Assembly: GCA_948144175.1 (NCBI GenBank)
Contig: CANXME010002421.1
Coordinates: 1-64,000, forward strand
Source: Closterium sp. NIES-65
Lineage: Eukaryota; Streptophyta; Zygnematophyceae; Desmidiales; Closteriaceae
Length of the DNA: 64,000 nucleotides
Direction of reading: 5' to 3'
The notes under the pieces are model-generated. The model saw only the letters and a program-made list of their open reading frames with translations, was not told the DNA's origin and made no database searches. The stretch's first letter is position 1; every line of letters starts with the position of its first letter. The position numbers and the translations under genes are program-made. This document shows positions 3,387-63,800 of the stretch, one piece after another.

Positions 3387-6300
3387 CGGCGACGGCGGAG
3401 AGAGCGGGCGGGGATGGGGGGGAGGGCGGGGCTGGTGTGCGGGGAGGCGGAAGCGACGGTGTGGTTGCCGGGGGTGGCGGAGCGGCGGGAGCGGGTGACG
3501 GAGGCGGAGGGGGGAGCGGGCGCGGGGACGAGGAGCTGCTGTGCCCCAACTGCCGCGCGCCCCTCTCGCTCCTCTCTTTCCCCGCGCTTGCCTTCCCCCA
3601 TTCCCCCTCCTCCCCGTCCGCGTCCGCGCTATCTCCGCCCATGTCCGCGGCGGAGGCGCGCACGAGCGGGCGCGCGGTGCTGTTCTGCCGCCAATGCCAG
3701 CGATTCACCGACAGGCCGGTGGCGAGAGGGACAGGGGAGGCGGAGAATGGGCGGAAGGGGAAAGAAGAGGGCAGCCGCAGGTGACGGCGGAAGGGCAGTG
3801 CGCAAGCGGGGGGAAGGGGGAAGGATTGGGGAAGGGCAAGGCCGGGGGGGGGGGCGCGAGAGTGGGGGAGTTTGTGGAGGCGGACTGGTATGAAGCGGAC
3901 TGGAAACATGTCTCCCCCCTTTCCGCCGTCACTCCCCCCGAGCCCCCCGCCTCTGACGCGTGGCAGTGGTCCCGCTTTGGGCGGCAACTTAGCCGCCAAG
4001 ACGGCCGCCCGGGCGGCAGGTCTGCGCGCAGCGAGCTGGACGGGATGATGGGCGGGGCGAGCGGGGGGGAAGGGGGGAGCGCGCGGAGGGATGCGCGGGA
4101 GGAGTATGTGAATCGGTTCAAGGCGAGTTTGCAGGGGTGGGGGGGGCACCCGTGGGCGCAGGGACAGGGGCAGCAGGGGCAGGGACAGGCAGGCGCGGGG
4201 GGAGAAAAGAAAGCGCAAAGGCAGGGGCAGGGGCGGAGTGAGGGGCAGCAGGTGGGCAGCAGCGGAAGGAATAGAAGCCCTGGCGGTGGCGGAAGCAGCG
4301 CCAGCGCGTATCCCCCTAGCTTCTCCTCCCCCCTCCTGCACGCCCCCAGAGGCCCCCCCGCCCCGCCTCCGCCCCCGTCCCCCCTGGCCGCGCCCACGCA
4401 GATCCCCCCCGCGCCTGGCGCGGGTGCGGGGGAGAAGCGGGGGGAGGGGGCAGCAGAGCGGGGGAGGGGAGGGGAGGGAGGGGCGGGAAGGGCGGGAAGG
4501 GCGAGAGGGGAGGGAGGGGCATGTGCCGTGTTTTGGGGCGGCAGGGGGAGGGGAGGACGGGACAGAGCACAACTGGGGAGGGGCGAATCTGGGGAGAATC
4601 TGCCCACGCCCAAGCAGATCCGGGCAGCTCTGGATGAATTTGTGATCGGGCAGGATAATGCGAAAAAGGTGAGCGGGTGCTGGTGACGTGGCAGTTACTG
4701 TTAGGCTGGTGGTGTAACAGGTTTACAGTCACAGACTCGCTAAGAGCAGTATTTTTTCTTCTTCTTTTGATTTTATTTGTAACCGAATGTTTGCAGTGGC
4801 GGTGGTGTACCCACTACGAGCGCATCTTCTCTATAAGCTCATTTCGTTACGAGCCCTTTCCGATCCCCGTATGCTACCCTTTGCTGCAGGTTTTGGCAGT
4901 GGCAGTTTACAATCACTACAAGCGCATCTTTCTTGAAAACCAGAAGCGGGAAAGACTTGCCAACCTGCCAGAGGGGTGAGAAGGGGTAAAAAAAAGGCGA
5001 GAGGAGGTTCAGAGGGGTGAGAGGGGGAGGAGAGGAAGTGGGAGAGGGGCTGTGTGCTGTGTGTGGTGAGGGATGGAGAGGGAGAGGAAATGTTCTTTAA
5101 AGTGATTCAAGCAAGGATTAAGAGGGAGAGGGAGAGGGAGTGACCGGTCATCTACCTGAACGATCCCCTTTTCTACACCTCACATGGGGGAAAGAGATTA
5201 GGCTTGCTCCACATTTTGCCCACTGTCCGCCCTCCCTCACTCACTCACTTCTGTTCTTGCTCACCCCCATGGTGGATAAGAGCAACGTGCCCCTCACTCC
5301 CTACCCTCTCCCTATGCCCCCGTCGCCCTCTCTTCCACCTCTCTTCCCCCCTGCAGGGCGTGCGAGAACCTGGTGGGGGGCGGTGAGGAGGACGAGGTGG
5401 AGGTGGAGAAGAGCAACGTGCTGCTGATGGGTCCCACGGGTTCAGGTGGGTGCAAGAATCACCACTGCAGCATACGGGGGGCAGGGCCGCATGGGAGCAG
5501 CGGAATAGCATAGGGTAGGGCAAGCATGGGACGAGGTGCAGGTGGGGAAGAGCAACGTGGTGCTCATGGGAGGGACCCACAGGCTCTGGTGGGTGGGTGG
5601 TTGGATGCAGCCCATCGGAAGCAGTAGGTGTTTGGACGGGTTCAGGCGTCGTGTCGTCTCAAAACTCGATGGGCCCGACTGACTGACACATGGGTCCCTC
5701 GCACGGGCCCCGATCATGTCGCTCGCATACAGCTGTTCAGGTACTATCGCCTGTCAAGCAAGGGCTGCCCAGAGGGTTTATTGGAGGGAAGATTTTAACA
5801 GGCTCATGAATGCGTGTATGCGTTCTTGCCTTCCTGTCGCCCAGCGGTCTCATGAGCAACGTGCTTCTCATCTCGCTCACGCGTGTGTCTCTCTCCACTC
5901 AACTTATCCCACTCCCCACCTGTCAACTCACCTTATCGGCTCCACTCCATCCGCCCACTCCCTACCCGCTCCGCGCCTGTCCGGCCTGTGATGGCAATGT
6001 GGTCAACATCCCAGGCCACTCCCTACCTTATTCTTTGCGGGCGGTATTTCAACCGCTGCTGTCCCTTGGGTGCAGTGCATGCAGGCAAGACCCTACTGGC
6101 CAAGACTCTGGCGCGGTTTGTCAACGTGCCATTCGCCATTGCTGATTTTTGAGTCGACTCAAAAAAGTCCCCTCCCCCCACACACTGGTGGGTGACTATC
6201 CCCTCCCCCCCCCCCAACGCGTGCAGGCAAGACCCTACTGGCCAAGACTCTGGCTCGGTTTGTCAACGTGCCATTCGCCATTGCTGATTTTTGAGTCGAC

Positions 6301-9300
6301 TCAAAAAAGTCCCCTCCCCCCACACACTGGTGGGTGACTATCCCCTCCCCCCCCCCCAACGCGTGCAGGCAAGACCCTACTGGCCAAGACTCTGGCTCGG
6401 TTTGTCAACGTGCCATTCGCCATTGCTGATGCCACCACTCTCACTCAGGTGCGCCTTTAACGAGGTGACTCTTAATTGACTCAAAGGCCACTCTCACCCA
6501 GCTGCGTCTCATACCGCCACTCTCATCAACTTCCACACCCAGCTGCGTCTCATACCGCCACTCTCATCAACTTCCACACCCAGCTGCGTCTCATACCGCC
6601 ACTCTCATCAACTTCCACACCCAGCTGCGTCTCATACCGCCACTCTCATCAACTTCCACACCCAGCTGCGTCTCATACCGCCACTCTCATCAACTTCCAC
6701 ACCCAGCTGCGTCTCATACCGCCACTCTCATCAACTTCCACACCCAGCTGCGTCTCATACCGCCACTCTCATCAACTTCCACACCCAGCTGCGTCTCATA
6801 CCGCCACTCTCATCAACTTCCACACCCAGCTGCGTCTCATACCGCCACTCTCATCAACTTCCACACCCAGCTGCGTCTCATACCGCCACTCTCATCAACT
6901 TCCACACCCAGCTGCGTCTCATACCGCCACTCTCATCAACTTCCACACCCAGCTGCGTCTCATACCGCCACTCTCATCAACTTCCACACTCAGCTGCGTC
7001 TCTCTGATTCTCAGGTTGGATACAGCCTGGTTTCCACACTCTTTCACACGGGAGAGTTCACCAGTATGGTTAACCAGTAGGGTTAACTCTCCCGTGTCAT
7101 GGTATGCCACTTAGGGAGTGCGTGACAAGGGGCATATTATTACTATCACCGTTGCTCTTGAGCCAATTCCCACACGATGACTCGTGATTCGCCTCAAAGG
7201 TCACTTCGTTACAGTGGCATGCAGGACAACGGGCTTTCTACTAGAACTGTGTTTCCTGAGCCAACGCTCACCTATTTCTCATTCTCTGGTGCTGTTTGTC
7301 GTGCAGGCTGGTTATGTGGGAGAGGACGTGGAGATGATTCTCTATAAGCTGCTGCAGGTGAGGGACAGAAGGGGTTGTTGGGGTTGGGACAGGGAGTGGG
7401 GGGTGGGGGGGTTATGTTATGTTAGTGTTTCTGCTCCTCGTGCAGGCGGGGTATGTGGGAGAGGACGTGGAGATGATTCTCTATAAGCTGCTGCAGGTGA
7501 GGGGGTTTGGAAGAGGTGAGACGGGTCAGTAGAGGTGTTAGCTTGTCGTGCAGAGGACGCGGAGATGATATTTTACAAGTTGCTGCACCTACAAGTGGAG
7601 GTGAGGGTAGGGGTTGCTGCACCCGGGTCCCAACCCCGGGTGGCTTCACGTAGCTCAACTGCTCCTTACAAGTTACATTCATTTTGCTCCTGATGTGCAT
7701 GCTTGCATGTTCATGACTATCTGTTCTGTGTGTGATTCCCATGGTGGTGTGTGTGTGTGCGTGACTGTCCATTTGTCTTACGCAGAGCGCCAATTTCAGT
7801 GTGTCAGCAGCGCAGCAGGGCATCGTGTATATCGACGAGATCGACAAGCTTACCAAGAAGGTGGGCTCGCTAGCAGCACTAGCGGCACTAGCTGCACGGG
7901 CACTAGGAGATGCAACCCCCCCCCACTAAAGCAGCAGCGCAGCAGGGATCGTGTATATCGACGAGATCGACAAGCTTACCAAGAAGGTAGGCTTGCTAGC
8001 AGCACTAGGGGCACTAGCGGCACTGGCGCTAAGTAGGTGCTCCCCACCCCACCAGAGCAGCAGCGCAGAAGGGCATTGTAAACATAGATGAGATTGACAC
8101 GCGCACTAAAAACATGAGCTTAATCTGGACAGCCCCCGCTCTCCCCTCTGTGCGTGCCTGGACAGGCAGAGGGCATCACGAGCACACGGGACGTGTCAGG
8201 GAAAGGCGTGTTGGAGTGTCTTATCCAATAAGTGTCTTACTGATTCCTCTCTCCCCCCTCTCTCATCTCCGCGCCCTGTATGACTGCACAGGCAGAGGGC
8301 ATCACGAGCACACGGGACGTGTCAGGGGAGGGCGTGCAGCAGGCGCTTTTGAGGATGCTCGAGGGCGCTGTGAGTAAAGAAGGGGGGGGGGGAGGGAGGG
8401 TATGGGAGTATGTGAGGAGGTTGGAGGAGGCGGGATGGGAGGGACGTGTCAGGGGAGGGCGTGCAGCAGGCGCTGTTGAGAATGCTCGAGGGCGCTGTGA
8501 GTGGGGGGAAGGGGTGGGCTGTAAGGGGATATGATGTGAGCTGGTTTGAAGGACGGTGGGATGAGAGACACAGGTCTATTGGCGTTTGAGATGTGGCAGG
8601 GGAGGGCGTGCGGCCGCCGTTGTTGAGGATGCTGAGGGGCGCTGTGAGGGTGGTGTGAGCATCCATGAGCCCGTTTGTCACACGTGTGTGTCCCTCTACC
8701 TACTGGTGCGGAGCGGATCTTCTCACTCCCCCTGGGCCCTGGGTGCAGGTGATTGATGTGCCAGAGAAAACAGGGAGGAAGTCCTTCAGAGATTTAGGGC
8801 GCCTTGTAAGTCTCATGTGCCGGTCTTCCCCCTGCTCCTCCCCTCTTCTCCCGGGTACAGGTGATCAATGTGCCAGAGAAAACAGGGAGGAAGAATCCAA
8901 GAGGCGAGTTCATACAGGTACGGGCTACAGGGGTGCGGGAGTGCGAGGGTTGCAGGGGTGCAGGGGTACGGGGGTAGAACAACGATACCGGGTGTTTCTG
9001 TTTTGAGACGTCTCAAAACACTTCTTCAAACACGGAGTGCGAGGGTTGCAGGGGTGCAGGGGTACGGGGGTAGAACAACGATACCGGGTGTTTCTGTGCC
9101 GAATGCCTGGAAATCACAACGAATATCACACAGAGCGGAAAGGGTTTCTGCTCAATGGCTAGATACGTTTGAGGCGCATTCCAAGTCGGAGTGTGTTTGT
9201 TAGCATGGCTAGCGACCTTCATCCCCTTGGAATTTACCTCAACAGAGGTGAGGGTCGATGAAGAGTATGTCTACCACCTCTTATTCCAACTTTTGAGGCG

Positions 9301-12300
9301 CGTCAGGAGTTGTCTCCGTTCATGCTTACTGCCTGCCATTCCCCTCTCGCATACCTCCCCTTTCTTTGCCCCACCCATCCCACCAGGTTGACACACAAGA
9401 CATACTCTTCATCAACCCTCACCTCTGTTGCTTGCCGTGCCAGCCATTCCCAGCCCAATACCCCCTTTCCCATACTTGACTTTGCCTTTCCCCTCCCAAC
9501 CCACCAGCTGGACACACAGAACATTCTCTTCATCTGCCCTCCACTGCCGCTGCCTGCTATTCCCACCCCCACGCCCCAAGCCACATGCCCGATGCCCCAT
9601 CCACCCCAATGCTTCCCCTTATCCCACCCCGCCAGCTGGACACACAGAACATTCTCTTCATCTGTGGAGGGGCATTCGTGGATCTGGAAAAGACGATTGC
9701 AGAGAGGTGAGGCGGAGGCTGCTTTTGCTGACTCAAAATGCACTCACTGATACGTCTGCTATCGTCAGGTTTTTGAGATTTCTCAAAACATTTGCTGACT
9801 CAAAATGCACTCACTGATACGTCTGCTATTGTCAGGTTTTTGAGAATTCCTTCAAAATTTGCTGACTCGAAATGCACTCACTGATACGTCTGCTGTCGTC
9901 AGTTATGACCTAAAAAAAAAAAATCGAAGAAAAGACAATCGCACTGAAGGTGCGCAACCATGGTTTTGGGGCAGGGAAAATGAAGCCACCGTTTCTCGCC
10001 TTTCAGTGCGATTGTCTTCGCCGCAGCAGTGTGTGCTACAACTGTGTATGCAGGCAATGTCAGGAATGCAGTCCCATCTTAACTACTTTGCCTACTCTGA
10101 TGACCCACCCACATGTTAGAAACGACTTTCAATAATTGTCTGCAGTTTGACTCTAACATTGACTGCGGTTTGAATCGGTCTGATTGTCTGCAGTCAATGT
10201 TAGGAATGTATCTCCTGCCTTTCGTTGGCCGTGCTATGCTAGCCCTCAGAGCTCCTAAGCGCGCAACTCTGCAAGCACTGCAAGAACATACAATGTTGTC
10301 TTGACTGCATGTCTTGACTCTCTCTATTACCATTCATTTGTTGCAGGAAGCGCAAGTCATCAATCGGCTTCGGGGCCCCCGTGTGACATTGCTGCAATCA
10401 TTGCAAGCAGACATGAGACTGACTGCATTCCATGACTCAAATCCCAATATTACCTTGCTGCGTGCAGGAAGCACAAGTCATCCATCGGCTTCGGGGCCCC
10501 CGTGCGCGCATCGCTGCGCAACCGATCGGTGCTTGACGCCCGCACTGCCGGCTCGCTGCTGCAATCGGTGAGTGCTAACTCTATACCGTTGGTTTGTTTG
10601 TTTGTTTTTTTGGTTGATTTGTTTGTTGGTTTGATTGTTTGGTTGGGTTTTGTTTTGTTTTGTTTTGTTTTGTCATTGTTTTAGCGCGTGTGCCAGCGAT
10701 CCATGCTTGCAACACTTGCTGTGTGTGCTTGTGGGCGTGCTGCTTTTGAGAGCTGCTTTTCACTGTCCTATAAGCCACCTGCTGCAGTTGATGCGTGCTC
10801 TTCCTTCAACCATCCTTTCCCCGCCACCCCGCAAACCCCCTTCCCCCCTTTTTTTGTATCAACGGCTCGCAGAGAGCACTTTTGAGGCGCCTCAAAAGTT
10901 GTCTCTCTTACCCGCAATTCCCGTATCTCCCCCCCCCCCCCCCCCCCCCCCCCCGTCTTTTTTTGCTCATCAACTGCACTCAGAGAGCACAGATCGGGTA
11001 GCCTACAGGCTCGTCCCCGAGTTTGTGGGGCGATTCCTTGTGTTATTGTTATACCCCTCCAGATCCTCCCTCCCCATCGTTCAACATCCCTCCCCACCCG
11101 TCCCCACCCCTCCCTACCCCTCTGGAACGGCAGGCAGAGAGCACGGATCTGATAGCCTATGGGCTCATCCCTGAGTTTGTGGGGCGATTCCCCGTGCTGG
11201 TGGGGCTGCATGCGCTCACAGAGGAGCAACTCGTGCAGGTAATGACTGGTGCAGGTAATGACTGGTGCAGGTAATGACTGGTGCAGGTAATGACTGGTGC
11301 AGGTAATGACTGATGCAGGTAGTGACTTGTGCAGGTAATGACTGGTGCAGGTAGTGACTGGTGCAGGTAGTGACTGGTGCAGGTAATGACTGGTGCAGGT
11401 AATGACTGGTGCAGGTAGTGACTGGTGCAGGTAATGACTGGTGCAGGTAATGACTGGTGCAGGTAATGACTGGTGCAGGTAATGACTGATGCAGGTAGTG
11501 ACTTGTGCAGGTAATGACTGGTGCAGGTAGTGACTGGTGCAGGTAATGACTGGTGCAGGTAATGACTGGTGCAGGTAATGACTGGTGCAGGTAGTGACTG
11601 GTGCAGGTAATGACTGGTGCAGGTAATGACTGGTGCAGGTAATGACTGGTGCAGGTAATGACTGGTGCAGGTAATGACTGGTGCAGGTAATGACTGGTGC
11701 AGGTAATGACTGGTGCAGGTAATGACTGGTGCAGGTAATGACTGGTGCAGGTAATGACTGGTGCAGGTAGTGACTGGTGCTGGTAATGACTGGTGCAGGT
11801 AGTGACTGGTGCAGGTAATGACTGGTGCAGGTAATGACTGGTGCTGGTAATGACTGGTGCAGGTAATGACTGGTGCGGGTAATGACTGGTGCGGGTAATG
11901 ACTGGTGCGGGTAATGACTGGTGTGTGTAGGCTTTGGTAACAACAGCTGGTGCTCATGGGGCTGCGTGCTTTCACAAAAGAGCAACATGTGCAGGTAGGT
12001 GTAGTGCAGGTGGCAACTGGTGCAGGTGGCAACTGATGCAGGTGGAAGCAAAGGACCTTTCTTATGCACTTCGAATTATGTCTATATACAGAGCTGAGTG
12101 GCTTTCCTTGCATGATTCGACACGTATTTTGGTCCATCTTCTTTTCCTAATCCCTGCCCAGAAAATTTACGTTCTTAAAACCGGAGGGCCAAGAAGGCCC
12201 AAATTGCCTCAACCTTCCTAACCTTGGTTGAGTTTGGCCCTCGCACCCAAAATCTTGGCCAATTGTGTTGCTCGCTCCAACCAAGCTTCCTAAGGTTGAA

Positions 12301-19373: not shown

Positions 19374-22300
19374 CTCCCCTTCGCTTCTGGAGTGTCGCTA
19401 ATGGTGACGTGGCCTTGTCCAGTCAGCAGCATGCAGTACTTGAACTTCTGTTTTCCGAGTTTCTTGGTCAAGTAATCGGCTGCCATCTCGGACGTGGGAC
19501 AATAGGATAATTCGAGTTTCCCTTTCTCGATCTCGTCTTTCACGAAGAAGTATCGCAGAGCGATATGCTTCGTTTTGTTCGCGAATCCGCTTTTGTTGGC
19601 GATGCGAATTGCAGATTGGTTGTCGCAGAATAGGGTGAAGTTGGGTAACTCGGCTAACTTTGCTTCTTCCAGCAGCTCGCGAAGGTAGAGTCCTTCCTTG
19701 GTGGCTGAGCAGAGGGCGATATATTCTGCTTCAGCTGAAGAGAGAGCGATTAGTTCCTGCTTGCTCGACTGCCATGAGATAGGTCCGATAGGCTCGAGAC
19801 GATAGACGTAGCCAGTGCGAGAGCGCCTGTTGTTAGAATCGCCGGCATGATCGGCATCGACGTAGCCGATTAGTTTCGTGGTCGTAGTTTCGTTTTTGTA
19901 GTAAGTCAGGCCGATCGTCGGAGTGCTCACGAAGTAGTGTAGTGCGCGATCGAGCTCCGCCAGGTGCTCTGCTTCGGGTTTCTTGAGGTAGGTAGCGAGT
20001 TGGCTTGCGGAGTAGGATAGATCCGGGCGGCAGGTGACGGCTGCGAAGAGGAGGCAGCCCAGTTTCCTCTGGTAGTCTCGTATTCCGGCAGCTTTGAGTG
20101 GAGCGGAATTTCCTTTGTTACTTCCTGCCGTGTAGCGGTATGGCGTGGCGATAGCGGTAGGTGTGAGCGAGAAGCGCTTGGAGATAGTGTCGGCGTATTT
20201 CTCGGCGCTTAAGTAGATAGCATTTTCTTCTTCGCGGATGTTGAGCCCGAGGTACTGAATGACGGTAGAAGAAACCGTGAGCGTGAGGTCCTTCTGCAGC
20301 TCCCCTTAGAACCAGGTGGTGATGTCGTCGGTGGAGCCGATGTAGAGTAGGTCGTCGACGTAGACGATCAGTAGGATGTAATCGGCGTCTTTAGTGAATC
20401 GATACATTCCTTGGTCGTGCGGCAGTTGGCGGAATCCGATGCGAGTGAGTCGGGTGTGTAGGTGCTGTTGCCACAGCCGCGGGGCTTGTTTGATTCCGTA
20501 GAGCGATTTCAGTAGCTGGCAGACCTGATTGGGGTTTCCGTGGGTACCGTGTGGGAGTTCGACGAAGATTTCGGCGTCGACGGGTGCGTAGAGAAATGCG
20601 TTGGCGACATCGATTTGTCGCGGTTTCTTCTTCTTCATGGCGGCAACGGCGAGAAGAATTCGAAGAGAGGTATGTCGACTAACTCGGGCGAATGTCTCGG
20701 TGAAGTCTCGTCCTTGCTCTTGGTCAAATCCACGCACGACCCAGCGTGCTTTGAACTTCTCGATTGTGCCGTCTGCTTTCGTTTTGATGCGGAAGACCCA
20801 TTTCCCGGTGAGAATGGTCTTGTTCCTTGCCACGCTTGCTGGAACGACCTTCCAAGTGTTGCGTTCCTCCAGTGCCTTTAACTCTCTGTCCATGGCTTCG
20901 CGCCATTTCTCCCTGTGTTCCCCCCCTAGAGCCTGCTGAACCGTCGCAGGCTCCTTAGGAAGTACGTTGCCGTGGACTGCGGTGATGAGGCCGAGGATTT
21001 GCAGTCCAGTCTGTGAGTATCGGGGGAGTGTTGGATCCTCAGGATAAGCTGCTTCGTCTCCCGCTTCTGGATCGGGTATGAAATTTGGCCCTATCCGTTC
21101 TGCTTCGTTTGTGTTAACTGTCGCAGGTGTTACGTAACCGTTGTCGGCGAAGTGATAGAAGACTTCGGCGTTGACACTGTCGCGAGGATTGTCTTCGTCC
21201 ATGGGCACGTCGACGGAGCAGTACGGGAGAGGTCCGGTTTCTTCCGATGCGTTGTCGACGTTCTGTTCATCCCAGTCTGCTTCGTCCGCTGCTGAGGCGA
21301 AGGCTCGGTCACCATGAAAACCACCTGTGGGGTCCTGATTCTCGTGAAAGTTGGCGAGGTACGTTTGAAGGGTGAGTCGCTCGTAGAAGATCACATCACG
21401 TGCTGCTACTGTTTCCTTTGAGTGGACATCGAAAATTTTCCACGCGTTGTATTTTTTCTCGATGCCGAGGTGTAGTCCCCACTGTGCCCGTTGTGAAAAT
21501 CTTCCCGCTCGTGCTTCTGGGGGTCGGTACTGCACCATGCATCCGAAAACTCGTAACATTCTTGTGCTGCCCTGCTTTCCTGTCCACAGCAGATGCGGTG
21601 ATGCGTTGTTCGGGAGTGACGACGACGACAGCAAGTTGTGCACCATGACAGCATGGTCCATTGCTGCAGGCCACTGGTGGTTGGGTAGCCGCATGCCACG
21701 TAGCAGTTTGCGCATGCTGTTTTGCAGAGTCCTGTTCATTCTTTCTGCAACACCTTGCTGCTGATGGGCGTAGGGAAGGGAGAGGATTTGCTTGATTCCC
21801 CTTTCCGCCAGGTACTGCTTGAAGCGCTGAGAGGTGTATTCTCCTCCTCTGTCTGACTGGAAGATTTTCAGCTGTGTTCCTGACTCCCTCTCTGCTACCG
21901 GTAGCCAAGCGGCGAACGCTGCGAGTGCCATGTCGCGGCTGGGTAGGTTTCGATGCCAGACGTATCGAGTGGCGGCGTCGATGAAGGTTATCGTGTAATT
22001 GTAGGTGACTTGTCCTGGTTCTCGATTGAAGAGGATGTCGCTGTATACTTTCTCGAGTGGTGCGTATGCAGGTGCGCTCGGGTTGTGGTGAGAAGAAAAC
22101 GGTCGATGGGGTAAGTCGGCTTCGGGGCAGATGAGGCAAGTTCCTCGTGCCCGTTGAAGTTCTCTGCCGTCGGGTGGTAGTAGCGAATCTTTGTCGAGGA
22201 CTCCTGCTCGTATTGTGTTATCTAATACTGTGTTGCTTGGATGTCCTGTGCGTGCGTGCCAGATGTCTTCAGGAGCGCGATGTCCGGGTGAGCGTTGATA

Positions 22301-22570
22301 CGCGTCGGAGTTGGAGTAGAAGCTGGCGACGACATTGGCGCTTCTGTGGACTTCTCGTTGAGTCGGGTTTAGTTGCTGTGCGGGTGTTGGTGGTGCTTCG
22401 TGGACGATGACTGGTGTCGTTGGTCCTGCTGCTGCCGATGATGTTTCTGCTGCTGTCGATGTTGTCTCTGCTGCTGCCGATGTTGTCTCTGCTGCTGCCG
22501 ATGTTGTCTCTGCTGCTGTCGATGTTGTCTCTGCTACTGCCGTTTGTTGAATTGTTGCTAACCCTCGTGT
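19352..22570 (-). pseudogene. Copia integrase-RT-RNase H region, copy 1
   Basis: Continues in the gag frame. It opens with a short-repeat linker rich in ETTSAAA (22420-22560), then the zinc-binding integrase start (about 22290), the catalytic core (FQSDRGGEY and GVAERMNRTLQ), reverse transcriptase with LLIVYVDDLLYIG near 20370, a TAA at 20306 in WF-GEL where copy 2 has Glu, and RNase H with DADHAGD, SSAEAEYIAL and DNQSAI. The last stop is at 19352. There is one nonsense codon in this part and no frameshift that I could see. Confidence 0.9.
19374..19386 (-). other. Polypurine tract
   Basis: The minus strand reads AGCGAAGGGGAG just before the 3' LTR, the expected plus-strand primer for Copia reverse transcription. 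The same tract adjoins the LTR of the second copy (about 32923-32935). Confidence 0.75.
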
Positions 22571-37050: not shown

Positions 37051-37055
37051 CTGAC

Positions 37056-37958: not shown

Positions 37959-37967
37959 TTGCTCCGG

Positions 37968-46170: not shown

Positions 46171-46175
46171 AATGT

Positions 46176-49700: not shown

Positions 49701-52700
49701 TCTCCGCTTCCCTCGAGCTCCTCACGGCCACCTTCCCGCAGTACTTCGTTCAGCTGGCCGCCGCTGCCGGGGCGGGGTTCTCTGCCTCGAGCCTCGTGCA
49801 GAGTGCCACGAGAAACCGGTTTTACGCCGGGCTGGCAGGCAGAAGAAACTTTGCCGAGGTGAGATTCAACGCTGTCTCGGGAGCCAATGGGGCCAGGAGG
49901 GGGGATATGCTCCCTCCTTGGACTTCCTTACCTTCTATAATCCTGGCTGGGGTTGTATGGGTTCAAATTGCAGAAAGCCTTCAAAAAAGGCCTAACATTT
50001 ATATCGGTGCTTTTATAGGCGTGTGCTGGGAATGGAAGTAAGCGGCTCTTATGGTTTTCAGGTTCACGAGTCACATGTCTTAACTCGTCAGCCTTTCATC
50101 CCCCTTCTTCTTCCCCAACCCAACCACCCCGAGTGTTGGTGTGTGTGCGCAGAAGCACAGCCGCACAGGGCATGGTGAGCATCGAGCAAGACATTGGAGA
50201 TGGCAGTAGGCGTCATTACTTTTGAGGCGCCTCAAAGACAGGGCAAGATAATTGGAATGGCATGAGGCCTCGCCATCGCCCCACACATGGGCACAATAGG
50301 CCCGGTGCTGTGCTCCTCTCATTACGCTCCCCGTGTTCTCCCTTCCACTCCACCCTGCCTTCCTCTCCCACAGGTGCTAGCACGTGCAGAGGCACAGGGC
50401 ATGGTGAGCAAGACATTGGGGATGGCCCTGGGTATCGCCATCGCTCCACACGTGGGCACCCGGGGCCCTCTGCTGTGTGCGACGCATGCCGTGCTGTCCG
50501 AACCGAACCTTTCGTGTGCTTTCTCTGACTGTTCCTCCTTTTCATCTCCCCCCAGGTCTTGGCGCGGGCAGAGGCACAAGGCATGGTGAGCAAGACATTG
50601 GGGATGGCTCTAGGCATCGCCATTGCTCCTCACGTAGGCACCAGGGGTCATCTGCTGTGGCTGATCCACGCATGCCCTGCTGTCCGGCCCACCCATGTGA
50701 TTGTACTTCACTTTCTGCTCCTCCCCTTCCTCTCCCCACAGGTGCTAGCACGTGCAGAGGCACAGGGCATGGTGAGCAAGACATTGGGCATGGCCCTGGG
50801 TATCGCCATTGCTCCTCACGTGGGCACGAGGGGTCCTCTACTCTGGGCAACACACGCCCTGCTGTCCGAACCCAACCATTTGTGTGTTTTCTCTGACTGT
50901 TCCTCCTCTTCCTCTCCCCTCAGGTGCTAGCACGCGCAGAGGCACAGGGCATGGTGAGCAAGACATTGGGGATGGCACTAGGCATCGTCGTTGCTCCTCA
51001 CGTGGGCACCCGGGGCCCTCTACTGTGGGCAACTCATGGCCTGCTGTCCGCCGCCCACCTGTTTTGCAACTACCGCTCGTACAAGGCCGTTCAACTCAGG
51101 ACGCTCAACCCCTTCAGAGCAGGTAAAATAAGTACTTGCTTGCAGGAAGCCTCACAAGCATTCAATCCAGTGGATTCAGAAGCAGATAGTTACTTCCAGA
51201 GCAGCTATTGTCATGTCATGTCTTTGAGCTGTAACCACAATTGTTTTTTAGGCGCCTAAAAAATCATCTCAAAAAGTTTGAGGCGCCCCAAAAACATTCG
51301 CCAGAGCAGCGACCGTCGTGTCTTTGAGCTGTAAGGCACGACGGTCGCTGTAAGCACAACTCAATTAGTTCCCTCCTTCACCTGTTTCTGTCTAAGTAGC
51401 TTGCTCCGCTGCGCTGTCCTCTCTGCTTCCCCTGTGCTCTCTTCTACCACTGTTCTTTCCCCAGATATTGTCCTGGCAGAGTACGTGACCAATGGCAGGG
51501 TGCCAGGTGTCATCGAAGTCAACTCCCAGGAACCCATTCTGCCGCCCCTCAAATCGATATTTTCGCCCAAGGTATCTCTGGTGTGGTGCATGTGTGATGT
51601 ATGTGTGGTGCATGTATGTATGGTGCATGTGCATTGCATGTGCGTTACAAGTGCCACTTAGCTGCAGTGCCTCACTCACACAGAGAGATCTCATCCCTCC
51701 TTCTCCCCTTTCTCTCTTCACAGGCGTCCCCTCCACCTCTCCCCGGCACAGGTAGCGAGAACTGGATTGAGTTCGGAGTGCCCTTGGCAAGTAGGCAGCA
51801 GTGGCTCACACAGACAGACGTCTCAACACTCCCTTACTCCCATTCCACCCGAACCCCCTCCCCTCCTCCCCTTTCCAGGCCTCTCCCCCTCCTCGTCCAG
51901 GCACAGGCAGTGAGAACTGGATCGAGTTCGGAGTGCCCTTGGCAGCAGTGGCGCAAAAAGAGACCTCTCAACCCCCTCATTCCCCCCTCTCCACCCGTTC
52001 CCCTCCCCCGCCCCTTCTCCGCGTCCCCTTTCCCAGGCGTCTCCTCCACCCCTTCCCGGCACAGGGAGTGAGAACTGGATCGAATTTGGGGTGCCCTTGG
52101 CCGCAGTGGCGCACACAGAGCGGGAGGCTGAGACCATGGCTGATATATTCCGAGGAGAGAAGTACCTGCTTGGGAGGGACGAGCGTACGGGGCAGATGCA
52201 GGTGCGTGTGCTGCTGCGCATGCTTGTGTTTTGAGATGGGAGTGAGGCACACAGGTGTGCTGTGCTGTGATGTGCAGTGGGAGGAGGCAGAGGCGGTGGC
52301 TGGGATGGGATATGCCGAGGAGAGAAGTACCTCCTTTGACAGGACGAGCGTACAGGGCAGATGCAGGTTCATGCTGTGTGCATCTGTGTGCGTGGGTGGG
52401 TGGGAGAAACGGGAATGTGTGGGGGCCTGCAGGTTGTGTTGAAAGAGGGATCTGTCTAGGGACCTCCTCCGGGCGGCCTTACAAATCCGGCCACCTCCGC
52501 ATGTGTGCCTCCTCGTCTCAATCCCGTCCCTTCCACCCCTGACACTCACCATGCAGGTTGTGTTAGGGGTGTCACGCCGCCGCACGGAGGAAGTCTCGAA
52601 AGAGATCCCTCTCTTGAAAGAGCACCATGCAAGTTGAGCTAGAAGAGGGATCTACTTCGGGACTTCCTCTGTGCGGCGCTCCAAGCAGACTACCTCTCCT

Positions 52701-54278
52701 CTTCCTCTCACATCCATTCCTTCTCCTCTTACCTCCATGCATTCTCACCCCTGTCACTCACCAGGCTGTGTTGAAAGAGGAGGCTCTACCTCGGGACTTC
52801 CTCCGAGCGGCCTTACAAGCCGCCTACCTCTGCACGCTTGCCCCACTTTTTTTGAGGCGCCTCACTTTCTCTTAGTGCTGCTGCCCTTCCAACCATGAGT
52901 GACAACGGCCTTACAAGCCGCCTACCTCTGCACGCTCGCCCCACACCCCCTCTGCCCCACCATCCACTCTTTCTGCCCACTGCAAGCTGTCTGCATCTAG
53001 ATTCTCACCTCTTGCTTTCCCACCCACCCCTATCTGTCACCCACCATCCAGGTTCTGTTGAAAGAAGGAGCTCTCCCTCGGGACTTCCTCCGGGCTGCCC
53101 TCCAATCCACCTGCCTGCCGCTAGATTGATCTCCTCGTTCCATCGCCATGCCTCCTCACCCCACGCACTCACCATGCAGGTTGTGTTGAAAGAAGGAGCT
53201 TTCCCTTGGGATTTCCTCCGGGCTGCCCTCCAATCCACCTGCCACTAAATGATCTCCTCGTTACACCGCCATGCCTCCTCACCCCACGCACTCACCATGC
53301 AGGTTGTGTTGAAAGAAGGAGCTTTCCCTCGGAATTTCCTCCGGGCTGCCCTCCAATCCACCTGCCACTAAATGATCTCCTCGTTACACCGCCATTCCTC
53401 CTCACCCCACGCACTCACCATGCAGGTTGTGTTGAAAGAAGGAGCTCTTCCTTGGGATTTCTTACGAGCGGCCCTGCAAGGCGCCTACCTCCGCACTCTC
53501 TCTCCACACCTCTTGCCTTCTCACCCCTATCAACCACTCACCATTCTTCTTGCACGTAGTGTTGAAGGAGGGGGCCCTCCCAAAGGACTTCCTCTGAGCG
53601 GCCCTACAAGCCGCCTACCTCCGCACGCTCTCTCCACACGTCCTCTGCCCCACCATCCACTCTTTCTACCCACCATCCATACAGGTAGTGTTGAAGGAAG
53701 GAGCACTCCCTCGGGACTTCCTCAGAGCGGCCCTGCAAGCCGCCTACCTCCGCACTCTATCTCCACACGTCCTCTGCCCCACCATTCATTCCCTCGCCCC
53801 CCAAGCGCGCACCCACGTCCAAGCCCGCGCCGCCGAGTTTTCCTCCTTGGGGAAGCAGATCAAGGTGCTGCATGCTCTCCTCTTCCCCTCACATCTATTC
53901 CTTCTCCTCTCATCCCCATGCCTTCTCACCCTGCAACCACCATCCATGCAGGTAGTGTTGAAGGAGGGGGCACTCCCAAGGGATTTCCTCAGAGCGGCCC
54001 TGCAAGCCGCCTACCTCCGCACCCTCTCTCCACACGTCCTCTGCCCCACCATCCACTCTCTCGCACCCCAAGCGCGCACCCACGTCCAAGCCCGCGCAGC
54101 CGAATTCGCTTCCTTGGGGAAGCTAGAGGTGCTGCATGCTTCGTATGACCGCATGGCTGCGGGGTTTGATGGGTTGTGTGAGGCGCTGAGAGCGAATGGG
54201 TGGCGCTGTGACGATGGCTTGTTGGCTCGGCCAGGAGACTGGCGACTGCTGCTGGCACCTGAGGAGAAGAGGAAATGA
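46706..54278 (+). CDS. RUS-family protein (DUF647), probably plastid-targeted
   Basis: Root UV-B Sensitive family; in plants its members act in UV-B sensing, auxin and organelle biology, with unknown biochemistry. Exons, all in phase: 46706-47881 (Arg/Ser-rich targeting-like start, Gly-rich block, hydrophobic segment [19 protein letters not shown], then [16 protein letters not shown]), 49247-49579 ([20 protein letters not shown] and [16 protein letters not shown]), 50924-51122 ([34 protein letters not shown]), 51465-51571, 52037-52201 and 53952-54278 ([18 protein letters not shown]; ends PEEKRK). About 768 residues, longer than plant members because of the Gly-rich insert. ATG 46706 is the first in frame. 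Introns contain many exon copies, so alternative joins are possible. Confidence 0.9.
48231..48660 (-). pseudogene. Fragment of a non-LTR retrotransposon ORF2 C-terminus
   Basis: Antisense in RUS intron 1, an open stretch reads [20 protein letters not shown], then [19 protein letters not shown] and [16 protein letters not shown], ending at TAG 48228. A segment of form F-x-PLAxETYG ... LRxxA ... LSVxLQ-x-x-A-x-A at the C-terminus of reverse-transcriptase ORFs is familiar from LINE-like elements. Only the tail survives; upstream frame is a CT-rich repeat. The assignment is from pattern memory. Confidence 0.45.
48655..49080 (+). repeat. CT-rich minisatellite ahead of a RUS acceptor
   Basis: About 425 bp, nearly all pyrimidine, in units such as CCCTCTCTCGCTTCCCTCCC. 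It ends at TCCTGCAG, the acceptor of an exon-2 copy, so it looks like an expanded polypyrimidine tract. Long frames on both strands (Leu/Ser/Pro or Arg/Glu/Gly) are artefacts. Confidence 0.93.
49681..49860 (+). repeat. 180-bp copy of the 3' half of RUS exon 2 with its donor
   Basis: Near-identical to 49400-49579 (TCCGACCTCGTTGAGAA to TTTGCCGAG|GTGAG). Here the copy lies downstream of the full exon and keeps the donor, not the acceptor. Confidence 0.93.
50150..50923 (+). repeat. Ladder of RUS exon-3 copies about 185 bp apart
   Basis: Copies with CAG acceptors begin at about 50374, 50559 and 50744 and stop after CTGTCCG; the true exon starts at 50924 and continues CCGCCCACCTG. A much-decayed copy at about 50160-50310 is interrupted by CTTTTGAGGCGCCTCAAAG (50219-50237). 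The open frame [21 protein letters not shown] persists in each. Confidence 0.93.
51190..51340 (+). repeat. X-palindrome-X module in RUS intron 3
   Basis: CCAGAGCAGC...GTGTCTTTGAGCTGTAA occurs before and after TTTTTTAGGCGCCTAAAAAA (51244-51263) and a second imperfect palindrome (51277-51292). No coding sequence is involved. Confidence 0.88.
51722..52365 (+). repeat. Copies of RUS exon 52037-52201
   Basis: Upstream copies at about 51725 and 51884 keep the CAG acceptor and [13 protein letters not shown], then end. A downstream copy at about 52275-52365 holds the exon end (GAGAGAAGTACCT, GGCAGATGCAG) but has TT in place of the GT donor. Confidence 0.88.
52430..53880 (+). repeat. Ten or more copies of the start of the last RUS exon
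   Basis: GTTGTGTTGAAAGAAGGAGC-type starts ([18 protein letters not shown]) recur near 52435, 52559, 52633, 52764, 53051, 53180, 53303, 53427, 53558 and 53687, mostly 123-137 bp apart. The 53687 copy extends to about 53860 (residues to FSSLGKQ). Most retain CATGCAG. At 52590-52620 a segment is inverted relative to 52648-52680. A palindrome at 52847-52864 (TTTTTTTGAGGCGCCTCA) cuts the copy at 52764; its segment CGGCCTTACAAGCCGCCTAC recurs at 52907. Confidence 0.92.
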
Positions 54279-57243: not shown

Positions 57244-57303
<60 letters not shown>

Positions 57304-57782: not shown

Positions 57783-57827
<45 letters not shown>

Positions 57828-60800
57828 ACCCACCCACACACACACACACACACCCACACACACACACACACGCAGACACAGACACAGACACAGGCACACA
57901 CACACACACACACACATACACACACACACACACACACAACAAACTTTAATGACCATCTCGACTCAAAAGCCACTCAAGAACTTGAATGCAGGTCTTCCCA
58001 GAACATCCCAATGTCCTCGTCGTCGTACACCTCCCTTTGCTCCCTCGACGTCTTAAGCGCCAATTTTTATTTTTTTAGCAGTGGCAGTTTCCCGGGCGAA
58101 GGGACTGACTGCTGTTGCATCAGAGGGATGTAATGTGAACTCACCTGCAGATCTTGCCAGAACACCCCAATGTCCTCGTCGTCATACACCTCTCTCTGCT
58201 CCCTTGACTTTTGGGTCAACTCAAAAGCTTCTCAAGAACTTGCCTGCAGGTCATCCCAGAACACCCCAATGTCCTCATCGTCTTACACCTCCCTCTGCTC
58301 CCTTGACGTCTGCCTCGTCCCCTACACCCCTCCCCATCCCCCACACCCCTCCCCATCCCCCACACCCCTCCCCATCCCCCACACCCCTCCCCATCCCACA
58401 AGTTCTCACTCATTCGCAGGGACTTGGAACAGAACTTGCCTGCAGGTCTTCCCAGAACACCCCAATATCCTCGTCATCATACACCTCCCTCTGCTCCCTC
58501 GATGTCTGCCTCGTCAGGTACAGAGGATACACAGCCACGTACCTGCTCACGTTCGAGAGAGCAGCAGGGAATGGAATGGAAGGGTGGGCGGTTGTGGGGA
58601 TGGAAAGGAGGGCGGTTGTGAGATTGGATTGGAATGGAATGAAATGGAATGGGGGCTGGGTGTTTTTTTAGAATTTTCAGAAACTCCATGCGAAGCCAGA
58701 GTTGGTAATGATATTTTTTTGTGCAAAGGATTCATGGCCACACACCTGAGCAGAGTTTGGAAGGGAGGCTGGGATATGTAAGGGAGGGTGATGTCCCATG
58801 CACTCTCACACCATGCCCCTTGCACTCTCACACCATGCCCCTTGCACTCTCACACCATGCCCCTTGCACTCTCACACCATGCCCCTTGCACTCTCACACC
58901 ATGCCCCTTGCACTCTCACACCATGCACTCACATCATGCCCAGGTATAGCAGCAGCATGGGGGGGCGCAGGAGGCCGATGGCAATTACGTTGAATCCCGC
59001 GTTGCGTGTGCTCACAGATTGGAAATATCCTGCTAGTACCTTGGTCCCGCCTGCCATGCGCACACACACAAACACAAAGGGTAGAGAGGGAGAAGAGTGG
59101 AGAAACTGTGTTTGAGGTGCCTCAAAAAGCATTGCGTGTGCTCACAGATTGGAAATATTCAGCCAATATCCACCTGGCATGCACTCACACACAACCACGA
59201 GGTGGGGGGAATGTGGAGTAACATTGTGTGTGGGGTTTTGTTTTGTTTTTTTGTTTTTTTTTTTGGGCAGACAAAGCCCCCACCAAAAGGAAGAATTGCT
59301 CTCTTCCCAGACACATCCTCAGGAAATACGTACGTAATCCTTGTTTGTTGGTCTTTAGGTGACTTTTGAGTCGACGCAAAAGTTCCCTCAGGAAGACAAA
59401 TCCTCTAGGAATATATACGTAATCCTTGTTTGTTGGTCTTTTTCGCATACCCGCAGTCCACATGCAACTCACTGGTGAAGCCGTCAATGGCAGGCGAGGT
59501 CCAGTCAGTGGCACAGAAGAAGACAAACTCCGTGAGATTGAACGCGAGCACTGTTAGCACGAGCATCACGGTGGAGCGTGGTGGGAAGAGGTGCGTGTAG
59601 CACTTGCGTGGGTGCACGAGAAGGTAGGAGTAGACGAACTGAGGGGCACGAGGTGAGGGGGGCGAAAATCACTTGTCAGTATAAGAAGAACCCAGTTTTA
59701 TGAGTCTGCTTTTGAAGCACCTCAAGAGAGGTGCGTGTAGCACTTGCGCGGGCGCAAAAGAAGGTACGAGTAGACAAACTGCCGGCCAGGGCAAAGGGTG
59801 AGAGAGGGTTGCAGACACTTCTCAATGTAAGAAACGCCGACTGCAATGAGTCTGCTTTTGAGTCACCTCAGAAGAGGTGCTAATGGCATTTGTGCGCCTG
59901 TAAGATGAGATGCGGTAGGTAGGTGTGGACAAACTGAAGGGGTCAACAATGTAGGTGTGGGGGTAGCAGATAGATTTTTCAAAATAGGAACCCTGCGGTG
60001 TAAGAGACTGTTTTCACATGACCTCAACAGGGGTGCACGCAGTGTGTGTGCAAATGCAGGAGAGTGTGAGTAGATGTTCTGAGGGATCACACTGCAGGAT
60101 GGTACAGTAGAAGAAGAAAAAAGGAGGTTGTTTTTTAGAATTGATGTGCAGCCTCAAAAACAACCTGCAGGATGGTACAGTAGAAAAAAGGATTGCCAAG
60201 TGTGCGTGCAGTGCAACACAGGGAGGGAGGGAGCCAGGAACAAGAAGAGAGGTGACTGGAGAGCGGTGGGGGACCTAGTGCGAAAACGGCAACCATGTGA
60301 AGGGAAAGACGGGTAAGGGTGCAGTCATTAGCCATCTACGAGACCGGTGTGGTGCGGTGCAGAAGTTCCCTCTTAGAGTGATCAAATTCAAGAGGGTGCA
60401 GTGCGGTGCAGACCTTACCCTTTTCTCTCCTCGTGAGAAGTGCCGGAGCAGAAGCAGGAGGGCTCGCAGCGTGGGCGGGTACATGGTATTGCCAATGAGA
60501 ATGAAGACCGACGTGACGATGATCAGAGCTGGCACCCTCACGAACCCCATTAGATTATCGTTCAGCAGTGCCGCCCCTGTGTTGGAAAACGTCGACATAG
60601 CCTGTGCGGGAAGGAGGAGGGAAGCATGGGGGCCGAGGGGTCTATTTTTGAGGCGCCCAAAATTAGGTTATCGTTCAGCAGTTCTGCCCCTGTGTTGGAA
60701 AACGTTGAAATCGCCTGTGTGGGGGGGAGGGAGGAAGCATGGGGGCCGAGGGAGGGACAAGTGAGGGTAGATGGAGGGGGGATGACATGAAAGTTGAGTG

Positions 60801-63800
60801 AGTGACATGGAAATCGGCTGCCTGGGATGGAAGGTGAATGACTGGGATGGAAGGCGCCTGACTGGCAAGAAGGGCAGCTGACTGGCAAGAAGGGCAGCTG
60901 ACTGGCAAGAAGGGCAGCTGACTGGCAAGAAGGGCAGCTGACTGGCAAGAAGGGCAGCTGACTGGCAAGAAGGGCAGCTGACTGGCAAGAAGGGCAGCTG
61001 ACTGGCAAGAAGGGCAGCTGACTGACATGGAAGGCACAGAAGAAGACGCTGTTGACGCTGTTGGCCTGCAGATTTGCCTTGGCGGAGGCAGAGAGGCTAA
61101 CGATGAGCAGCAGCAGGAGGAAGGCAGTGAGCAGCGATGCGGCGAGGAATGCTGGCACCAGCCAGCTTAACGTCTCCAGTGCCCTTGATAGGGATAGGGA
61201 CGGTGGGATGGGGATGGGGATGGGGATGCATTTTGAGGCGCCTCAAAATACGCCTCAAAATATGATGCGGCGAGGAATGCTGGCACCAGCCAGCTTAACG
61301 ACTCCAGTGCCCTTGATAGGGATAGGGACGGTGGGATGGGGATGGGGATGGGGATGGGGATGGGGATGCATTTTGAGGCGCCTCAAAATACGCCTCAAAA
61401 TACGATGCGGCGAGGAATGCTGGCACCAGCCAGCTTAACGTCTCCAGTGCCCTTGATAGGGATAGGGACGGTGGGATGGGATGGGGATGGGGATGGGGAT
61501 GGGGATGGGGATGGGGATGGGGATGGGGATGGGGATGGGGATGGGGATGGGGATGGGGATGGGGATGGGGATGGGGATGGGGATGGCGATGGGGATGGGG
61601 ATGGGGATGGCGATGGGGATGGGGATGGGGATTGGGATGGGGATGGGGATGGGGATTGGGATGGGGATGGGGATTGGGATTGGGATGGGGATTGGCATGG
61701 GGATGGGGATTGGGATGAGGATTGGGATGGGATAGGGATAGGGGGATGGGGATGGGGATGGGGATGGGGATGGGGATGGGGATGGGGATGGGGATGGGGA
61801 TGGGGATGGGGGTGGGGATGGGGATGGGGATGGGGATGGGGATGGGGATGGCGATGGGGATGGGGATGGGGATTGGGATGGGGATGGGGATGGGGATGGG
61901 GATTGGGATGGGGATGGGGATTGGGATTGGGATGGGGATTGGCATGGGGATGGGGATTGGGATGAGGATTGGGATGGGATAGGGATAGGGGGATGGGATG
62001 GGGATGGGGATGGGGATGGGGATGGGGATGGGGATGGGGATGGGGATGGGGGTGGGGATGGGGATGGGGATGGGATAGGGTGGGGATAGGGGGAAGGGGA
62101 TGGGATGCGGATGGGGATGGGAATGGAGATGGGGATGGGGATGAGGATGGAAATGGGGATGGGGATGTGCAAGTGTATGTGCATGTGCATGTGCAAGTAC
62201 ATGTGAAGTACATGTGCAAGTACATGTGCATGCATGGGCAATGTGCAAGTGCAGGTTCCACATCGAAAGGGGGGCATTGCAGAGCAGATGGCACAGAGAG
62301 AGGGCACATAGCATGGAACGTGGCACATGGCACGTGGCACATGGCACGTGGCAGAGATGGCACATGGCACATTGCAAATTGCACATGGCATGTCGCACAT
62401 GGCACATGCAATGCACAAGAAAATCATTTCAAAAATGAGATTTTTCGAAAGAGGTCCATCAGAGAACAGCAGCAGGGCAGAACAGTGGTGCAGGAAAGTG
62501 AGCTATGAGGAGGGCCCACCTGAGCCACAAGGAGGGGAGGGAGGGCTCACCTGAGCCACAAGGACGGGAGAAAGGGCTCACCTGAGCTCGAGGAATCTGA
62601 GTTCACTTGGCTGTGCTGCCGTCAGCCATTCATCCACCATTGCATCCGCGTAACCATCAGCAAACCCGTAACCATCAGCATCAGCGAAATCCAGATCCCC
62701 CCCAAGGCTTGTGCCGGTCACACTGCTTTCACGGCTCAACCTCCCGCTCCTCCTCTGCCTTGCCCTGTGCTCCAGACCCCCCAGGAATGGCAAGAATGCG
62801 GGGGCGTGTGGTAGGGAGTGTGCTCTTAACGCGGATTGGTTGAGAGATGCAGCACGAGTTAGCCTTGAGGTGAACAGGTCAAGGGAGGAGCGCCTTGTAG
62901 CTGCCGCCTCCTGCTCCTCCTCCTGCGGCTGCTGCTGCTGCTGTGCTCTAAGCGCCTCAAGCGCCAATTGGAGGCGCTGCCCTTCAATCCTAGCCGTTTC
63001 CCCGGCCCAAGTCATCGAGCTCATCCCCACAGCCCCCTCTGCCTCCGCCCCTCTGCCTCCACCCCGCCGGCGCAACCCACCACGTGTCACCCATCCCTCC
63101 TCCACATCCGTCCCCAGTCTGGCGCCACGCCCTTCGCCCTCACCATCACCTGGAGTCAAGGGTTGCCGCCCTTCTCTTGCCTCCTCCAGGAGTTTCTCCA
63201 GGAGAGTTGTCAGGCCTAAGGGCCTTCGGCCCGTGGGAGCTGCTGATTCTTGAGGCGCCTCAAAAGTTGTCAGGCCTAAGGGCCTTCGGACCACAGGCGC
63301 TGCTGCTGCTATTGCTGCTGTTGTTGCACCTGCTGCTGCTGTTGCTGCATCTGCTGCATTTGCTGCTGTAGCTGTTCCTGCCGCTGCTGCTGCACCAGAA
63401 GCTGCAGCCACAGAGGCCACATGGGACTCGCCTGCTGGAGCGACAGTGCCTGCAGTGGCAGCAGGTATCTCATGGGAGGGGGCGGGCGAGGAAGAGACAA
63501 GAGGGGGAATGCAGGCAGATGAGGTACTTCCTCCTCCTCCGCTTAAGCTAGCAGCAGCAGCCGCAGCAGCAGCCGCAGCAGCAGCAGCAGCAGAAGGGTA
63601 TGCAGTGGGGTCACTGGCGATAGGATATGCTGGGCCTGTTTCAACGTCAGCAAAACCATCTCCTCCCCCCTCTTCCCCCCCAGCATGCACTCTACTCCCC
63701 TGCAGCTGCCCCAGCACTCTCAACCCGCCTCCTCCACTGCCTCCCTGCCTTCCCTTGCTGCTGCCACTGTCACTGCTGCCCCTGCTACCCCTGCTGCCCT

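Follow-up and report, generated by a model that had tools for sequence, protein, structure and literature searches.

Palindromes between direct duplications in a 64-kb window

The DNA analysed here (the window) comprises positions 1 to 64,000 of contig CANXME010002421.1 of Closterium sp. NIES-65 (GenBank assembly GCA_948144175.1), with a GC content of 56%. Between 4500 and 13000 it carries a ClpX-like gene, the exon pieces of which are each present in several local copies, and within this gene as well as further along the window a short palindrome, TTTTGAG-N4-CTCAAAA, was found between direct copies of a local segment (X-palindrome-X, X being the duplicated segment). An initial annotation had listed 18 such sites, and local alignment confirmed the X-palindrome-X arrangement, with clear flanking copies at 16 of the 18. 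The exceptions were 59856, where the similarity was moderate (89/143), and 50220, where it was weak (a gapped 81/128 lying far from the palindrome). The core was less uniform than annotated, as it was exact at 7 of the 18 sites (6147, 6289, 9001, 9771, 10880, 61231, and 61371) and imperfect at the other 11, mostly through 1–2 mismatches or an altered centre length, with 52850 departing further. Local alignment found no convincing duplication at the palindrome-like places 46945, 55108, 56665, and 57052 or at the half sites 9291 and 57962.

The ClpX exon offers a yardstick for what was added. The first X copy (6077–6146, 70 bp, forward strand, as are the X copies starting at 6219, 6356, 8938, 9034, 9724, and 9791) holds the exon start with its splice acceptor and matches 6219–6288 at 68 of 70 positions. 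It is followed by the exact palindrome TTTTGAGTCGACTCAAAA (6147–6164), a 54-bp spacer, the second X copy (6219–6288), and a second exact palindrome (6289–6306), which shares a 142-bp unit with the one at 6147. The third copy (6356–6430, 75/75 to 6214–6288) is the native continuation into ClpX. The three copies encode the same 21-residue stretch (at 6084, 6226, and 6368); in copies 1 and 2 the palindrome comes next, giving F and then a stop at which translation ends, and copy 3 reads on as ATTLTQ, followed by GT. The 27 residues of this third copy (6368–6448) align without gaps to ClpX chains (best 6sfw_O, 5e-8). Since only the third copy continues the conserved ClpX, both the palindrome and the surplus copies of X have been added to a conserved gene. 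Every copy keeps an AG (gcaG/GC) ahead of the reading frame, with which the last X copy could still be spliced in.

A single insert is seen at 9001, where a 63-bp X (8938–9000) is repeated without mismatch at 9034–9096 around a 33-bp insert with an exact core, TTTTGAGAC/GTCTCAAAACACTTCTTCAAACAC, the left arm of which is truncated (9001–9033). At 9724–9770 a 47-bp X is followed by a 20-bp insert with the exact core TTTTGAGATTTCTCAAAA (9771–9790), the second X copy (9791–9837, 46/47), a 21-bp imperfect insert, GTTTTTGAGAATTCCTTCAAA (9836–9856), and a third X copy (9857–9902, 43/46 around this insert). The palindrome had been described as no part of X in the native copy, which holds for the outermost copies only; at 6147/6289, 9771/9838, and 61231/61371 it lies inside the repeated unit.

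Abundance and structure of the palindrome

The genome-wide search proposed in the initial annotation was carried out on the assembly of this one Closterium genome (874,075,685 bp, 2400 contigs) and returned 30,327 exact sites; the same pattern reversed occurred 4 times. In 264 kb, made up of the window and 20 further stretches picked for palindrome density, the core with ≤2 mismatches was present at 121 places, compared with 25 for 40 shuffled arms pooled, and a chance origin of the core matches was rejected on this ground. Palindrome sites were present on 2-Mb contigs and at positions past 7 Mb, and the insert at 9001 alone gave matches of 33–47 bp (93–100% identity) in at least 19 further places on 18 contigs, with 40 of 285 candidates scored.

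At 79 exact sites in 303 kb, a count that takes in array copies and loci chosen by arm, N4 was mostly self-complementary (TCGA 43, ACGT 15, GCGC 12, and AATT 2), the remaining seven being TTGA (2) and TCAA, ACAT, AATC, ATTT, and TAGA (1 each). A C-to-T change at the central CpG would give TTGA, TCAA, and ACAT. When related copies were counted once and ≤2 mismatches allowed, the 126 sites comprised TCGA 48, GCGC 21, ACGT 18, AATT 10, and others 29. Given that N4 is mostly self-complementary, the inserts are palindromes without a loop.

The arm sequence outward depends on the core type, either (CG)AGGTGAC or GTTGAC ahead of TTTTGAGTC, or CACGTG...AGTG ahead of TTTTGAGAC; the palindromes form subfamilies with a fixed core and differing arms. 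Fuller arms are 17–27 nt long and many are truncated from the outside, with perfect arms of up to 26 nt (L018:4603). Among sites selected by their core, the outer insert ends vary from site to site on each side and the centre is conserved. Clean inserts consist of arms alone, as at L012:9826 (17-nt arms, X about 43 bp) and L018:4603 (26-nt arms, X about 20 bp), X being judged by eye in both. Some arms have a second head-to-tail unit at 12, 15, or 17 nt: of 136 arms, 17 had GAG at the 12-nt offset (against an expectation of 3.8) and 4 had a TTTTGAG-like word there (expectation 0.24), and such words were also in excess at 24 nt (3 arms) and 29 nt (4 arms). These head-to-tail units suggest that a short template was copied repeatedly to make the tails, which were then joined tip to tip.

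No second palindrome family stood out between duplications in 102 inserts without exact TTTTGAG or CTCAAAA; of the 91 that could be scored, 5 reached p 1/50, and the top two were decayed members of the TTTTGAG family. At L009:324–480 a 20-nt tandem array, TTTTGAGGCACTTTTGCGAC, looks like a satellite grown from the TTTTGAG-palindrome core, and at L019:2598–2820 a different 20-bp palindrome (arm CGCCACTGGC) is present in six copies, mostly 37 bp apart.

Flanking duplications are centred on the palindrome

A first flank test was not specific (50/58 sites but 296/1000 random places), and constrained tests were put in place. In the tight test, the left copy had to end ≤12 bp and the right copy to start ≤25 bp from the palindrome; the controls were the same exact sites moved by 60 or 120 bp (100 places) and 1000 random places. 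At a score ≥12, 21 of the 25 isolated exact palindromes in the 264 kb had direct copies of a segment abutting them on either side, compared with 6/100 shifted places and 181/1000 random places, a high background (Fisher p = 8e-15 and 4e-12, respectively). Isolated one-mismatch sites passed in 10 of 17 cases. At a score ≥20 the counts were 18/25 exact, 6/100 shifted, and 148/1000 random. Since shifted sites seldom passed, the duplication is centred on the palindrome. A looser test (left end ≤30 bp, right start ≤60 bp) gave 44/55 isolated sites against 91/400 random places, a further test gave 32/55 against 31/600, and with array copies included 49/58 exact sites passed against 5/20 decoys. A lack of any excess of duplicated flanks elsewhere, by which the initial annotation would have had its proposal refuted, was not seen in these stretches, and the looser, array-inclusive, and tight tests give good support to insertion coupled with a long target duplication of variable length.

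At 45 isolated sites X was 11–173 bp long, with a median of 48 (200-bp flanks were compared, and a longer X would be missed), and its copies were 72–100% identical. This span of identity argues that insertion continued over a long time. A C-rich composition was found in the six native bases that follow both X break points (141 C, 82 G; 32 isolated sites) but not in the six that precede them (99 C, 103 G).

Both arms of an insert mostly carry the same variant

Genome-wide, GTGAC was paired with GTGAC in 1013 cases (AA) and TTGAC with TTGAC in 499 (BB), and mixed arms (AB) numbered 111 + 135 = 246, all three counts including tandem-array copies. Under free pairing 804 mixed pairs would be expected (F = 0.69); part of the 246 should be cases in which an arm is truncated and the T belongs to X. 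Centres pairing a T-type side with an A- or G-type partner (G-with-A hybrids being left out of the count) were likewise few, 122 + 124 = 246, which is <1% of the 30,327 sites. Free pairing of two independent tails was thereby rejected. The five outermost bases of the two arms also agreed more than when shuffled within core type (concordance 0.54 vs 0.41; reached by 0/2000 shuffles; 42 sites), and by core type the agreement was significant for TCGA (19 sites, 0/2000). As the arms match each other, both mostly come from one source. With independent templates disfavoured, the remaining possibilities are a hairpin or palindrome copied whole and two tails made from one RNA.

Near-identical paralogues differ in unit number

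The genome was searched with two stretches of the window (7.9 kb), and paralogue structure was read from the match coordinates. Six copies of the ClpX stretch, four on C2368 and two on C508, are full-length and match it at 100% (rounded), with all its sites included. In six others, four on C2244 and two on C2013, 8938–9096 is matched twice, the matches lying 32–33 bp apart, as if three palindromes stood in place of the one in the window. On C2004 and at C508:8121 the matches overlap, as if 6147/6289 and 9771/9838 each had one unit less. Length is little changed across 9771/9838 in a diverged copy, C508:27888 (77% and 92%), and for this reason the palindromes there look older than its split. 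Three copies of the ClpX stretch break off at 6288. For the stretch at 58–61.5 kb, six copies on C1858 (93–97%) and one on C1076 (96–99%) align through the palindrome sites to 61231; three end 140 bp before three others, and 140 bp is the unit length at 61231/61371. Since near-identical paralogues differ in the number of palindrome-X units, arrays appear to grow secondarily, with the unit both multiplying and shrinking after insertion.

The window stretches recur as near-identical copies 27–68 kb apart on C2368, C2244, C508, and C1858, i.e., as large tandem segmental duplications. In addition, positions 58795–58926 hold a 66-bp tandem repeat without a palindrome, of which the paralogue on C1076 (99% identical) apparently has one copy less.

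A proposed mechanism and its alternatives

We propose, with a probability of roughly 0.6, that an ultra-short nuclear palindrome enters staggered breaks, that overhang fill-in creates the duplication, that both arms are made from one template, and that arrays form later. The anatomy of the inserts, the centring of the duplications, the matched arms, the subfamilies, and the secondary arrays are direct observations; from these we infer the staggered break, the fill-in, and the single template. Two nicks on opposite strands, some 10–170 nt apart, would produce a break whose overhangs are long and complementary. With the palindrome placed between the broken ends, filling in both overhangs would convert X into X-palindrome-X. 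The template of the arms might be a hairpin, or both 3′ ends might receive a copy of one arm and be joined through the self-complementary centre; that both are copied from a single template is suggested because they mostly carry the same variant. Slippage or unequal exchange would later multiply the palindrome-X unit into arrays. In mouse cells, small tandem duplications arise via CST and Pol alpha from nicks on opposite strands that are spaced by 43 bp and leave 3′ overhangs (PMC8355091). Such paired-nick geometry, with a palindrome between the filled-in ends, would give X-palindrome-X with variable X.

A further reading, speculative and rather improbable, is a new class of mobile nucleic acid that lives through break repair. 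In it, an activity of telomerase type would add copies of one arm (~17–27 nt) to both 3′ ends of a staggered break, and the identical tails would be joined at their self-complementary tips; the arm itself might be a small RNA processed from hairpin transcripts of older palindromes. Every insertion would then remake a perfect palindrome encoding the next template, and copy the target.

Several observations weigh against insertion into staggered breaks as proposed here. At a score ≥30 only 10/25 exact and 5/17 one-mismatch sites passed the duplication test, compared with 118/1000 random and 5/100 shifted places, and even at the lower threshold 4/25 isolated exact and 7/17 one-mismatch sites failed. 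Some inserts (6147, 10880, and 52850) contain 30–54 bp of extra sequence, for which the simple scheme has no place. In the genome no empty site turned up for the two stretches searched (7.9 kb), the paralogues of which appear to carry palindromes too, in differing unit number. The arm counts hold array copies and are therefore not independent events, the arm concordance is weak for ACGT (9 sites, 51/2000) and absent for GCGC (7 sites, 260/2000), and at least a few inserts (L029, L036, and L049) have arms of two variants. Bases matching at truncated ends were present at 42/61 junctions (≥1 nt, array copies included), which is weak evidence given an estimated null of ~0.44.

Reverse transcription, telomerase-like or target-primed, is a possible though unlikely alternative, in which both 3′ ends would be extended on the same short RNA, with an inferred sequence of about 5′-CTCGACTCAAAAGTCACCTC-3′ or a relative, and the tails joined head to head at TCGA, CG, or AATT. 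The fixed self-complementary inner end with ragged outer ends would suit such copying, as would the second arm units spaced at 12, 15, or 17 nt, the excess of GAG (17/136 against 3.8) and of TTTTGAG-like words (4 against 0.24) at 12 nt, and the few mixed-arm inserts. However, TTTTGAG-like words peak at 24 nt (3 arms) and 29 nt (4 arms) as well as at 12 nt, and the mixed arms (246 vs 804) and centre hybrids (246) reject a free choice of template at each end, so that both ends would need the same RNA. No Rfam match explaining the template was found in the scanned stretches, where one tRNA reached the gathering threshold in 114 kb and nothing exceeded the gathering score in the others. Further, the telomere-type repeat here is TTTAGGG, and a telomeric origin of the palindrome through telomere-repeat healing was rejected accordingly. 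Four units of TTTAGGG gave 2267 forward and 788 reverse overlapping matches, one of them at a contig start; arrays lie at C64:136584–142495 and C131:130405, with one at the start of C17 and others possibly interstitial.

It is improbable that the palindrome came first, by an ordinary insertion, and then stalled replication so that neighbouring DNA was duplicated across it. Palindromes are unstable, unit numbers differ between near-identical paralogues, and 4/25 isolated exact sites are without a detected duplication, all of which this order of events would accommodate. Slippage, however, should mostly copy palindrome and flank jointly, as in the secondary arrays, and in 21/25 sites the copies abut the palindrome on both sides (left ≤12, right ≤25 bp). 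The subfamilies with matched arms at unrelated loci might instead recall a DNA transposon of the type of miniature inverted-repeat transposable elements (MITEs), reduced to two terminal inverted repeats and served by a transposase with unusually wide staggered cuts. We consider this quite improbable, since the conserved part is the centre and not the termini, the outer ends are ragged, and the duplication (11–173 bp) is not fixed in length; the last two points support the initial annotation in its exclusion of MITEs. The 19 open reading frames (ORFs) scanned in fetched DNA belonged to long terminal repeat elements and host genes, with 2 lacking a match, in a scan that included no search aimed at an autonomous relative. 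Ordinary minisatellites holding a palindrome by accident, or an assembly artefact, are very improbable explanations. Many copies do lie in arrays and 181/1000 random places have local duplications, but isolated sites have two X and one palindrome, X differs per site with the same insert, one insertion lies in a conserved exon, and the ClpX stretch has six more full-length copies that match it at 100% (rounded) throughout its sites. The earlier exclusion of a minisatellite thus applies to isolated copies, many others being tandem units now. The two origins suggested in the initial annotation, a mobile palindrome and templated repair, are not mutually exclusive: subfamilies at unrelated loci favour mobility, and ragged ends, tandem arms, and variable X favour a repair-type insertion.

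If insertion into staggered breaks is right, a gene-less sequence of 18–54 bp spreads by tens of thousands in a nuclear genome and copies its target each time, and exon pieces, splice sites, and tandem-repeat units are made as a by-product. Small tandem duplications, usually taken as random repair scars, would be linked to a heritable sequence, and the origin of minisatellites and of local exon multiplication would become testable in an alga close to land plants.

Comparison with known systems

MITEs are short, non-coding, high-copy inverted-repeat elements that form subfamilies, with target duplications of fixed length and conserved termini. The Closterium palindromes share the former features but have a conserved centre, an X of 11–173 bp, no fixed duplication length, and no precise conserved outer termini. 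Target-primed reverse transcription of short and long interspersed nuclear elements (SINEs and LINEs) gives target duplications of variable length, as found here, together with truncated copies and possible terminal repeats. Unlike these elements, the Closterium inserts have arms head to head and duplications longer than usual; no SINE or LINE promoter, tail, or body was recognised in the inserts examined, and no genome-wide search for LINEs was made. The head-to-tail single unit of a minisatellite is absent at isolated sites and present only in the secondary arrays.

The closest known systems are repair-made tandem duplications, which the Closterium palindrome resembles in its working, with a conserved insert added, and the selfish palindromes of Volvox. 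Duplications from paired-nick repair are likewise tens of bp long, with two opposite nicks (proposed for Closterium) and overhang fill-in, and abutting copies of this size were found here at 21/25 sites. In the part of PMC8355091 available, no conserved palindrome between the copies is described, whereas Closterium has one, as the same palindrome core lies at junctions of unrelated X. The palindromes in the mitochondrial and plastid DNA of Volvox carteri are about 50 nt long, fall into several related classes, and are thought to be selfish (Smith and Lee 2009, PMC2670323, available part). Like those of Closterium, they are short, of related classes, and without coding capacity. They are organellar, with hairpin loops of 3–5 nt, and lie in noncoding regions, their nuclear copies being called inert; the string 'duplicat' occurs 0 times in the available text of PMC2670323. 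The Closterium palindromes match them as short palindromes of high copy number (30,327) but, compared with that text, are nuclear and loop-free and have long direct target duplications, with neither an organelle location nor a 3–5 nt loop. The ultra-short invasive element of Podospora mitochondrial DNA, cited in the same text and for which reverse transcription was proposed, is also a very small mobile sequence, differing in being mitochondrial; that text showed no mention of long duplications for it.

No description of such palindromes in Closterium was found in the open-licence papers searched. The available text of PMC10407611, which gives genome sizes of 454–1188 Mb for strains of the C. 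peracerosum-strigosum-littorale complex, to which the present alga may belong, does not contain 'palindrom'. A 24-mer had 0 matches in IMG/VR, and a 20-mer had 0 in a prokaryote genome collection.

Remaining sites of the window

In the ClpX-like gene region, the exact palindrome TTTTGAGGCGCCTCAAAA with 30 bp of further sequence (10880–10927) separates X copies at 10818–10879 and 10928–10990 (51/66). At 51235–51300 a 66-bp insert holds two palindromes (51245 and 51276) between X at 51196–51234 and 51301–51334 (31/39), and at 52847–52905 palindrome and filler together span 59 bp between 52808–52846 and 52906–52944 (38/39). Inserts of 27 bp (58209–58235; X 58137–58208 and 58236–58307, 64/72), 22 bp (59110–59131; X 59002–59109 and 59132–59227, 81/110), and 37 bp with the arm AGGTGACTTTTGAGTC (59357–59393; X 59309–59356 and 59394–59441, 45/50) follow. 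Two imperfect palindromes lie at 59710–59727 (X 59588–59709 and 59728–59855, 96/129) and 59855–59873, the latter with the weaker pair 59728–59854 and 59874–60010. A decayed insert absent from the earlier list, with arms AGGTTGTTTTTTAG and CTCAAAAACAACCT, was found at 60131–60159 (X 60089–60130 and 60160–60195, 34/44), and a 24-bp insert at 60640–60663 (X 60551–60639 and 60664–60752, 78/89). At 61229–61263 the palindrome has a second head-to-tail right arm at 12-nt spacing (X 61136–61228 and 61264–61356, 92/93); this unit is repeated 140 bp on, at 61369–61400 (X 61261–61368 and 61401–61507, 105/108). The last is a 20-bp insert at 63246–63265 (X 63206–63245 and 63266–63305, 35/40).

Between 10.9 and 46.9 kb of the window the palindrome (≤2 mismatches) is absent; this stretch also holds leucine-rich repeat genes. 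When one leucine-rich repeat ORF was translated, its best matches were Closterium proteins (83% for Yama58-4 and 87% for Naga37s-1, each covering 39% of the query), in agreement with a Closterium origin. ORFs of Copia-type retrotransposons (RVT_2, gag, and integrase) lie at 20306–24514 and 33318–39371.

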